DNA of 52,253 bases, taken from the NCBI GenBank assembly GCA_021827495.1, contig JAKAVN010000005.1:1-52253 (forward strand), written 5' to 3'. A program made the translations under genes and the position numbers. The stretch's first letter is position 1, and the number at the start of each line of letters is the position of its first letter. This DNA comes from Deltaproteobacteria bacterium. Its GTDB lineage: Bacteria > Desulfobacterota > Binatia > Binatales > Binataceae. Under the pieces are notes generated by a model. The model searched no databases. It had not been told where the DNA came from and worked only from the letters and a program-made list of their open reading frames with translations. Below, piece after piece: positions 41,927 through 44,943 of the stretch.

Positions 41927-42457
41927 ATGATGCCAGAAAATCCAGCGGACAAAAACGACGCATCGCAAGGCGCGCCGACTGCGCCAGCACCAGCCGCGGC
42001 GGTGAAACCCGCCGCGGTGGCTGCGGCGCCGGCCGCCGCCAAGGCGGCCGCGCCCCAGCCACCGCCACCGCCCAAGCCTCAACCGGTCGACGAATTCGAT
42101 CCGCTCGGATGGGACGTCCCGATCATCTGCAAGAACTGCAACCAGCGCTTCATCGTACCCTACCGCAACTTTCACACCGGCGTGGTCTTCCATTGCCCGT
42201 CATGCCAAGGCTCATGGGTTCCCAACACGACCATCGCCACGGGGATGCGTCGCGTGTTCGAGGACTTCTGGGGCCCGCGCAAACTAGCCCGCGCGGCTTT
42301 CGAGCGCGGCGAACTAAAGCTCGAGCGCGCCGGGTTCGAGCGCCGGCGGGCGGAGGAACTCGAGGCCTTCAAGCAGCGGCTCGAGCGGCTGGCCACGGAG
42401 TTGAAGCCGGCGGGCAAGCTGGTGCGTCCCAAGGGCCTTGCGGCGATGTTCAGCTAG
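41927..42457 (+). CDS. Zinc-ribbon hypothetical protein with Ala/Pro-rich N-terminus
   Basis: CKNCNQRFIVPYRNFHTGVVFHCPSCQGSWVPN (CxxC...CxxC) after a low-complexity PA-rich segment. Confidence 0.65.
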   Translation: MMPENPADKNDASQGAPTAPAPAAAVKPAAVAAAPAAAKAAAPQPPPPPKPQPVDEFDPLGWDVPIICKNCNQRFIVPYRNFHTGVVFHCPSCQGSWVPNTTIATGMRRVFEDFWGPRKLARAAFERGELKLERAGFERRRAEELEAFKQRLERLATELKPAGKLVRPKGLAAMFS

Positions 42458-42473
42458 CCGCTCCGATTCATAG

Positions 42474-43856
42474 ATGAGCCTGCGGGCGAAATTCGCGGCG
42501 GTCTTTCTGCTCCTGCTCATTCTGCCGATAATCGCGGTCACCGCGCTCGAGCTCGACCGCACGATTGCCGTGATGGTCGAGGACCTCGGCGATTCGGCCT
42601 CGCTGCTGATCGATCTGACGTTCGAGCAGCTGCGCGCGGTGCCGGGCGCCGCCGCCGGGCAGGAAGCGCTTGCGGCGCTGCACGACAACCGGCCGTTGCA
42701 GGCCTTCATCGAGTCCTCGCAGGCCTTCGGCAAGGCGGTCGTCTACTTACGCATCGAGCAGCTCGACGGCACGATCGTCGCCGGCGGGCGGGCGGGAACG
42801 TCGGGTTTCGCCGACGCTCCCGCGGCCTTCGACGATCTCCAGGCTATCGCCACCGGATGGTGGCCGCTGTCGGCGATTCGCGCATTGTGGGCGGCGCACA
42901 ACTACGAGATGAGCCGGGTGGTGCAGGCGGACGGCAAGCCGATCGCGATCATCGCGGTCGGCATCTCGACCAGCCTGATCGCGCCCAAGCTCCATCAGGC
43001 ATTGGCGCGGATCCTGGTGGTGGCCGCGTGCGCGGTGGCGCTGAGCCTGCTGGGCGCCGCGTTCTTCGGCGGCCTGGTGTTAGGCCCGCTCGCCGCCATC
43101 ACCAGCGGCGTCGAGCAGATGACCGTGGGCCACGGCGAGGTCAAGGTTTCGGTCACCGGCTCCGACGAGCTGGGCGTGCTGGCCGCCAAGTTCAACCAGC
43201 TCTCGGAGAAAGTCCGGCTGAACCATGTCCAGTGGGAGGCCGAGCGCGACCAGCTGGTGAACGTCTTTCACTCGATCAGCGACGCGGTGCTGGTACTCGA
43301 TTTGAACGCGGCCGTGCTGTTCGCCAATGCCGAGGCCGAGGGCCGGCTGGGACTGCCGGCGGGCGGGATCGCCGCCGGCAAACCGCTCGCGCGGTTGCTG
43401 GGCGGCGACAACCCGCTGATCAGGATAATCGAGACCGCGCGCAACGCCGGCCAGGGAGTTCATGACGTGCCAATCGAGATGGGCGACGGCGCTCATCACG
43501 TACACTTCCTGGTCTCGGTCTTTGCGCTGGGGCTCGAGCCGCCGTCGCCCGCAATGCTGGTGATCCTGCGCGACCTCGAGCCGGTGCGCGGGCTGCGCAA
43601 CGTGGTCGATCATTCGGATCGCCTGATCAGTCTCGGCGAAGTGATCTCCGACGTGGCGCGCCAGATTCGCAACCCGCTCAGCGCGATCAGCTCGCAACTG
43701 GATCTTTTGCGCCGCGAGGCCGAGCACGGCCAGCCGGTCGGAGAGCGCGTGCACGCACTGCGCGATGAAATCCGCCGCCTCGACAAGGCGGTCGAGGCGC
43801 TCAACCCGTTCATGGCGCCGCAGGGTTCCGGGCCGCGCGGGAAACGGACGGCCTGA
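42474..43856 (+). CDS. Histidine-kinase-like membrane receptor (sensor-HAMP-PAS-HisKA-like) lacking HATPase domain
   Basis: Two TM segments, HAMP-like GPLAAITSGVEQMTVGHGEVKVSVTGSDELGVLAAKFNQLSEKV, PAS-like VFHSISDAVLVLDLNAAVLFANAEAE, HisKA-like LISLGEVISDVARQIRNPLSAISSQLDLL, then a stop. Confidence 0.8.
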   Translation: MSLRAKFAAVFLLLLILPIIAVTALELDRTIAVMVEDLGDSASLLIDLTFEQLRAVPGAAAGQEALAALHDNRPLQAFIESSQAFGKAVVYLRIEQLDGTIVAGGRAGTSGFADAPAAFDDLQAIATGWWPLSAIRALWAAHNYEMSRVVQADGKPIAIIAVGISTSLIAPKLHQALARILVVAACAVALSLLGAAFFGGLVLGPLAAITSGVEQMTVGHGEVKVSVTGSDELGVLAAKFNQLSEKVRLNHVQWEAERDQLVNVFHSISDAVLVLDLNAAVLFANAEAEGRLGLPAGGIAAGKPLARLLGGDNPLIRIIETARNAGQGVHDVPIEMGDGAHHVHFLVSVFALGLEPPSPAMLVILRDLEPVRGLRNVVDHSDRLISLGEVISDVARQIRNPLSAISSQLDLLRREAEHGQPVGERVHALRDEIRRLDKAVEALNPFMAPQGSGPRGKRTA

Positions 43857-43917: not shown

Positions 43918-44943
43918 CTAGCTGGTATGCACCATGGGGCCGGGCTTTTCGAGCGCGACGCCGTCCGTTTGCGCCTCGGCGGCGCTCTCCGGCTCTTCAT
44001 CCAGCACGCGGATCTCGTGCGGATTCAGGGTGCGCGCCAGCGCCAGCATTCTAAGCGCGGCGGATTCGAGCACGCGCCCGAGCCATCGCCGCACCGGCGC
44101 GCCATTCCCGCCCGGCGCCTGCGCGCGCAACGTGGAGAAGAGGCTGTCGTACTCGGTCACCGCCGCCTCGACCATCCGCGTGTCGACCATCCTGGCGCCG
44201 CCGGAGTACGCGAGCAGCATCGCGTTGTGGCACAGCACGTTGATGCGGCGCGGGATGCCGCCGCTGTGGCGGACCAGGTAGCGCAAGGCTCCCGGCTTGA
44301 AGATTCTCTCGGCGGCGCCGTTGACCACCTGCAGCCGCTGCTCGATGTACCCATGGCATTCGGCCCGCTGCAGGGGATTGAGTACGGTCTTGGCGCCGAT
44401 CCGCTGTTCGAGCTGGCGCAGCGACGGATTGGTCAGCCGGCGCAGCAGCTCGGGCTGCCCGATGAAAACGAAGTGAAGCTGCTTCTCGTCGGGTTTTCCG
44501 CTGTTCGACAGCAGGCGCAACTGCTCCATCGTCTCGTCATTGAGGCCCTGCGCCTCGTCCATCATTATTACCGCGCGCGCGCCCGGCTTGAGTGCGCAAA
44601 GGAAATCGTTCACCGCCTCGAGGTCGGCCAGCTTGCTTCTGCGCTGGGTCTTGATCCCGAGTTGCTTCATGATCACCTTCACCATCTCTTCGAAGGTCAA
44701 CTTGGGATTGCTCAGGTAGGCAGTGCGCACGTTCTCGTACTGGCGGGCGAGGATCGCCAGCGCGAGCGTCGTTTTGCCAGTCCCAACCTCGCCGATCAGG
44801 ACGGTAAAGCCGCTCGGCTCATGCAACAGCCCCCATTCCAGGGCGGCGTAGGCCTCCCGATGCTCCTTGCTCATGTAAAGCTGGGCAGGCGATGAAGTGA
44901 GTTGGAACGGCGGACCGGTGAGGCCGAAGTGGCTATAGTACAT
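43918..44943 (-). CDS. ExeA/GspA-like AAA ATPase
   Basis: MYYSHFGLTGPPFQLTSSPAQLYMSKEHREAYAALEWGLLHEPSGFTVLIGEVGTGKTTLALAIL...VIMMDEAQGLND...GIPRRINVLCHNAML. Confidence 0.92.
   Translation of the reverse strand: MYYSHFGLTGPPFQLTSSPAQLYMSKEHREAYAALEWGLLHEPSGFTVLIGEVGTGKTTLALAILARQYENVRTAYLSNPKLTFEEMVKVIMKQLGIKTQRRSKLADLEAVNDFLCALKPGARAVIMMDEAQGLNDETMEQLRLLSNSGKPDEKQLHFVFIGQPELLRRLTNPSLRQLEQRIGAKTVLNPLQRAECHGYIEQRLQVVNGAAERIFKPGALRYLVRHSGGIPRRINVLCHNAMLLAYSGGARMVDTRMVEAAVTEYDSLFSTLRAQAPGGNGAPVRRWLGRVLESAALRMLALARTLNPHEIRVLDEEPESAAEAQTDGVALEKPGPMVHTS

Follow-up and report, generated by a model that had tools for sequence, protein, structure and literature searches.

Degenerate histidine kinases are a known class of signalling proteins. 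Approximately 1% of histidine kinases have a substitution at the acceptor His, and Arg is among the substitutes (PMC5361649). In pseudo-histidine kinases of the DivL type, the acceptor His is replaced, and the non-phosphorylating protein keeps the histidine kinase fold and binds a response regulator (PMC5361649). A sensor part can also be found without a kinase of its own, as in SkiA (pXO2-61), a sensor-only inhibitor of a sporulation kinase whose proposed target is BA2291 (PMC5862856). A further mechanism is provided by RetS and GacS, in which a heterodimeric DHp interface blocks autophosphorylation, a possible route by which a DHp-bearing protein may act without phosphorylating (PMC12148439).

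The locus described here lies in a 52,253-nucleotide stretch of contig JAKAVN010000005.1 of a Deltaproteobacteria bacterium of the family Binataceae (the window), and its kinase gene is a degenerate member of this class. It resembles DivL in its replaced acceptor His, but DivL keeps the histidine kinase fold, whereas the window kinase lacks the CA domain and its gene is decaying. Like SkiA it resembles the sensor part of a histidine kinase; however, SkiA has a globin-like sensor and a tested function, while the window protein is a TM-HAMP-PAS receptor with a remnant DHp, known from sequence. RetS keeps its kinase region (RetS-HK), whereas the DHp of the window kinase is degenerating. The explanation we regard as probable is that the gene is what is left of an ordinary membrane sensor kinase, a paralogue truncated by a deletion and then subject to decay of its transmitter.

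Domain organization of the truncated kinase

The open reading frame at positions 42474-43856 of the plus strand starts with ATG, encodes 460 amino acids, and was confirmed as real. Pfam matches, relatives, and an AlphaFold model identify its product as a histidine kinase paralogue with the order TM-sensor-TM-HAMP-PAS-DHp and without a CA/HATPase domain; domain calls were judged against the curated Pfam cut-offs. An extracytoplasmic PAS/Cache-like sensor region (residues 28-176; 42555-43001), flanked by two TM helices, is indicated by the model and by identity to relatives. It is followed by a HAMP domain (residues 198-248; 43065-43217; PF00672, E 6e-9, 36.5 bits against a cut-off of 25) and a PAS domain (residues 260-372; 43251-43589), which is called from Pfam PAS_8/PAS (PAS_8 at residues 263-317, 22.5 against 21.8) and has a PAS fold in the model. 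The HisKA (DHp) helical hairpin, devoid of its phospho-acceptor, occupies 43632-43802 (PF00512 at residues 387-443, 33.8 against 26.9; helices 382-417 and 423-447). According to the alignment to relatives, a non-homologous C-terminal tail (residues 448-460), which together with the stop codon spans 43815-43856, stands in place of the CA domain.

The AlphaFold model has a mean pLDDT of 73.6 and a pTM of 0.41. Its sensor half is predicted to comprise a long helix (3-55), a mixed alpha/beta region (63-165), and a helix (169-218), with two long membrane-spanning helices; the remaining chain is modelled as a pair of HAMP-like helices, then a PAS fold and a DHp hairpin with both of its helices complete, and it becomes disordered from residue 448 onward. 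Foldseek searches with the whole model returned generic PAS and histidine kinase structures only. An earlier note, made from the letters of the window, had described a TM sensor followed by HAMP-like, PAS-like, and HisKA-like parts, and this layout is borne out by the Pfam matches above cut-off and by the two TM helices of the model.

A HisKA kinase can autophosphorylate only if it has an acceptor His as well as a CA domain. Pfam gave no HATPase match in the 460-aa protein, no HATPase_c turned up on the window's contig when the whole genome was scanned, even with E<=10 allowed, and searches with the ATPase domains of full-length family members gave no match in the window beyond the end of the DHp in any frame. 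The note was right that the protein stops where the HATPase would begin, and only 61 nt separate the kinase stop from the stop of the convergent ExeA-like gene. A missing HATPase hidden in another frame or farther downstream was ruled out, as none was found.

The H-box of the truncated kinase is ARQIRNPL, with Arg396 (codon CGC, 43659-43661) in the acceptor column, where all 32 other rows of the family alignment with a residue have His. The note had read this motif as a departure from AHEIRNPL, which implies two changes. Since the family motif is AHQ(I/L/V)R, with Gln after the acceptor in every row with a residue there, the replacement of His by Arg is the sole real one and the Gln is no oddity of this protein. 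As both required elements are absent, the 460-aa protein cannot autophosphorylate, nor can it be phosphorylated at the usual His. It has the TM sensor, HAMP, PAS, and HisKA parts of a functional HisKA sensor kinase and lacks the phospho-acceptor His and the C-terminal HATPase; as a histidine kinase homologue, it has the substituted acceptor site seen in pseudo-histidine kinases. The note's term "non-phosphorylating receptor" is thus apt for a protein with no acceptor His and no ATP-binding domain, the truncation of which is common to a congener at the same locus.

Glu or Asp usually follows the phospho-acceptor His in HisKA kinases, unlike the Gln seen across this whole family (e.g. L049:7439-9256). 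The FleS/FlrB flagellar kinases also have AHQ.

Intact relatives and congeneric loci

The family otherwise consists of ordinary kinases in Ca. Binataceae MAGs, nearly all of 601-640 aa with the AHQ(I/L/V)R motif and a HATPase. Among the genomes compared, members occur in all 17 genera of the same taxonomic family. A scan of database contigs with a single protein as query gave no match; with the alignment as query, 20 family loci were obtained from uncultured MAGs (Ca. Binataceae, Deltaproteobacteria, and Proteobacteria). The window's own genome (G000) encodes an intact paralogue on contig C246, of 606 aa with HisKA and HATPase, in the order sigma-54 response regulator, kinase, lipoprotein gene, and convergent AAA+LysM ExeA-like gene. 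The layout of kinase, lipoprotein gene, and convergent ExeA was also found in genus g7. The closest intact members, such as C246, have the same domain order as the truncated copy and are 46-51% identical to it over residues 1-450. It differs from them in having no HATPase, acceptor His, adjacent response regulator, or lipoprotein gene.

Several family loci have features of their own. A module of sigma-54 regulator, AHQIR kinase, and short lipoprotein-like protein, often with a convergent AAA-TM-LysM ExeA-like gene, recurs in Ca. Binataceae (L049, which is the C246 locus, L051, L053, and L064); the lipoprotein-like protein (cluster 2) has no Pfam match. The family member L015 (G010:C17:36101-37480; L047:9102-10478) has an in-frame TAG after residue 379 and ends near residue 460. 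It keeps its His and has the longest branch in the tree (1.09); the 19 kb around it gave no clear HATPase match. This member seems to have decayed in a similar way, independently of the window kinase. At L152 (G000:C214:62398-63075), a HisKA match (open frame of 368 aa) adjoins a HATPase match (164 aa) in a different open frame, which suggests a frameshift or split kinase.

Two congeners, G001 and G002, show what became of the truncated gene in close relatives. The G002 locus has the same order as the window, namely zinc ribbon, kinase, convergent ExeA, SDR, and EthD. Its sister kinase of 407 aa is likewise without a HATPase, and an in-frame deletion has removed most of its DHp. An EAL motif is shared by the two truncated kinases, each of which ends 17 aa past it. 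In G001, the zinc-ribbon gene and ExeA are kept 116 nt apart, and no credible kinase remnant was found between them, though this genome has an intact paralogue. The neighbouring genes place G001 nearer to the window's genome than G002 (ExeA 81% vs 71% identity; SDR 89% vs 82%), so G001 must have lost its kinase later, in an event of its own.

The truncated pair (G000 and G002) is monophyletic with an SH-aLRT of 100 and stands apart from the clade of the genus's full-length copies; a recent duplication of the genus's own kinase was ruled out on this ground. The altered acceptor site is not conserved across orthologues, as the sole sister gene lacks that region and G001 lacks the gene. The gene has the marks of a decaying copy, with intact relatives elsewhere and further degradation or loss in close relatives. 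Relatives with an intact His and HATPase, which the note had held out as a sign of a local frameshift or truncation, are the rule, and the window gene is therefore a local degenerate copy; an assembly error, which the note had named separately, is not the cause.

Neighbouring genes and the proposed deletion

The convergent gene (43918-44943, minus strand, start ATG at 44943) encodes an ExeA-like AAA ATPase, which by Pfam and comparison with relatives is itself truncated. The protein ends approximately 60 residues past the AAA domain, while most relatives run on into a TM segment and LysM. The short, LysM-less ExeA is present in all three congeners and forms one clade. Most likely, one deletion is behind both shortened genes. 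In the ancestor of the genus, it would have spanned the facing 3' ends of a duplicated module of kinase, lipoprotein gene, and convergent ExeA, and would have removed the part encoding the CA domain, the whole lipoprotein gene, and the part of ExeA that encodes LysM. About 1.5 kb would be missing relative to C246, as judged from the coordinates. That the ancestral copy had a lipoprotein gene is an assumption based on the layouts at C246 and in g7, and we infer the single event, its timing, and any residual activity of the truncated kinase. LysM-less ExeA relatives also occur in other lineages (G003, G018, G021, and G025), so the shortening of ExeA and that of the kinase could be separate events.

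The zinc-ribbon gene upstream (41927-42457, plus strand) ends 16 nt before the kinase, in keeping with the short spacing that the note had reported. Genome comparison shows that it is conserved independently of the kinase: it was found in 25 of 38 genomes from several families, and none of the relative loci examined outside the genus had this kinase beside it. The suggestion that the receptor acts through the zinc-ribbon protein finds no support, as the gene is widespread without the kinase and was kept in G001 after the kinase was lost; a functional link between the two genes was ruled out on the same ground. The protein itself has an N-terminus rich in Pro and Ala and a ribbon of the CxxC-CxxC type; it occurs across several families of the class, and no Pfam family matched it above cut-off.

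Erosion, selection, and the fate of the receptor

Erosion of the truncated kinase is concentrated in the transmitter, as expected after loss of the CA domain. The sensor (residues 1-195) has an identity of 0.40 to the full-length set, against a family mean of 0.43; the values are 0.46 for HAMP (mean 0.50), 0.50 for PAS (0.59), and 0.49 for the DHp, for which the family mean is 0.64 and the lowest full-length row 0.52. Family-invariant positions are changed at 0 of 9 sites in the sensor, 1 of 9 in HAMP, 1 of 13 in PAS, and 4 of 13 in the DHp, the His included. Once kinase activity was gone, the DHp would have been freed from constraint: it carries His396Arg and other changes in the window's genome and was mostly deleted in G002, while in G001 the whole gene was lost. 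The membrane sensor, HAMP, and PAS can still fold and probably dimerize, and purifying selection continued to act on them during much of the period after truncation. If the protein is active at all, it would most likely be a kinase-less sensor that titrates a ligand or forms unproductive heterodimers, for example with the C246 kinase.

A functional pseudo-kinase, which inhibits C246 or another kinase through a HAMP/PAS/DHp heterodimer or titrates ligand, is the foremost alternative, and we consider it possible but rather unlikely. The continued constraint on sensor, HAMP, and PAS, the complete DHp hairpin in the model, and an intact paralogue, 48% identical, in both genomes with the truncated gene are all consistent with it, and the RetS-GacS heterodimer (PMC12148439) and the sensor-only sporulation kinase inhibitor (PMC5862856) offer precedents. 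However, a heterodimer would be expected to form through the DHp, and no other part of the protein is less conserved; the DHp is nearly gone in G002, and G001 dropped the truncated gene despite its intact paralogue. A more specific version, for which we hold a somewhat lower expectation still, is a genus-specific kinase-less membrane receptor that arose by a single deletion and that selection retains in the role of decoy or dominant-negative partner to the intact sigma-54-linked kinase, with a decaying transmitter and a conserved sensor.

A functionless, inactive pseudogene that is open by chance is doubtful. The truncated pair has evolved at approximately twice the rate of its full-length counterpart (tree path of 0.98, against 0.51); this, the loss of the gene in G001, and the loss of the conserved His and other DHp invariants would agree with such a pseudogene. 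On the other hand, neither genome has a stop or frameshift at 57-59% protein identity, codon-position identities are 0.72/0.80/0.60, with second positions far more conserved than third, and neutral simulations gave 2-6 stops on average. The length of the open frame is weak evidence of selection, because the DNA is GC-rich and a non-coding frame of the gene has only 2 stops. YN00 estimates for the truncated pair (dN 0.26, dS 1.42) and the full-length pair (dN 0.16, dS 1.80) put dN/dS below 1 in both and, with the codon positions, indicate that constraint on the truncated genes is weaker, yet present. An open frame that is intact after long divergence, together with dN/dS well below 1, argues against a plain dead pseudogene, and some function likely lasted after truncation.

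A split kinase, completed by an orphan HATPase encoded elsewhere, is very improbable. One short HATPase open frame exists at C132 (156 aa from GTG), but it was ruled out as the missing half since it is only ~31-34% identical to the family CA domain, and the receptor would still be without a phospho-acceptor His. A faulty 3' end, produced by misassembly or an erroneous frameshift, is conceivable in a draft genome of 264 contigs but is the least credible reading, as the independent G002 assembly has the same order with a truncated kinase facing ExeA, no HATPase lies on the contig, and none of the frames downstream contains a piece of the CA domain.

A relict of an ordinary sensor kinase remains the preferred explanation. 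The note had envisaged a dominant partner or scaffold for another kinase; the advancing decay in G002 and the clean loss in G001 favour a dispensable relict instead, the sensor half of which was perhaps kept for some time as a decoy or dominant-negative partner. A conserved regulatory role is at odds with the missing gene in G001, the loss of the DHp in G002, and the lack of a consistent partner gene. The locus plainly illustrates how a two-component sensor loses its kinase half: among close relatives, every state can be seen, from intact through truncated and more degraded to absent. Should the sensor half prove functional, it would amount to a naturally occurring dominant-negative receptor; if not, the locus cautions against inferring function from an odd motif in a degenerating paralogue.
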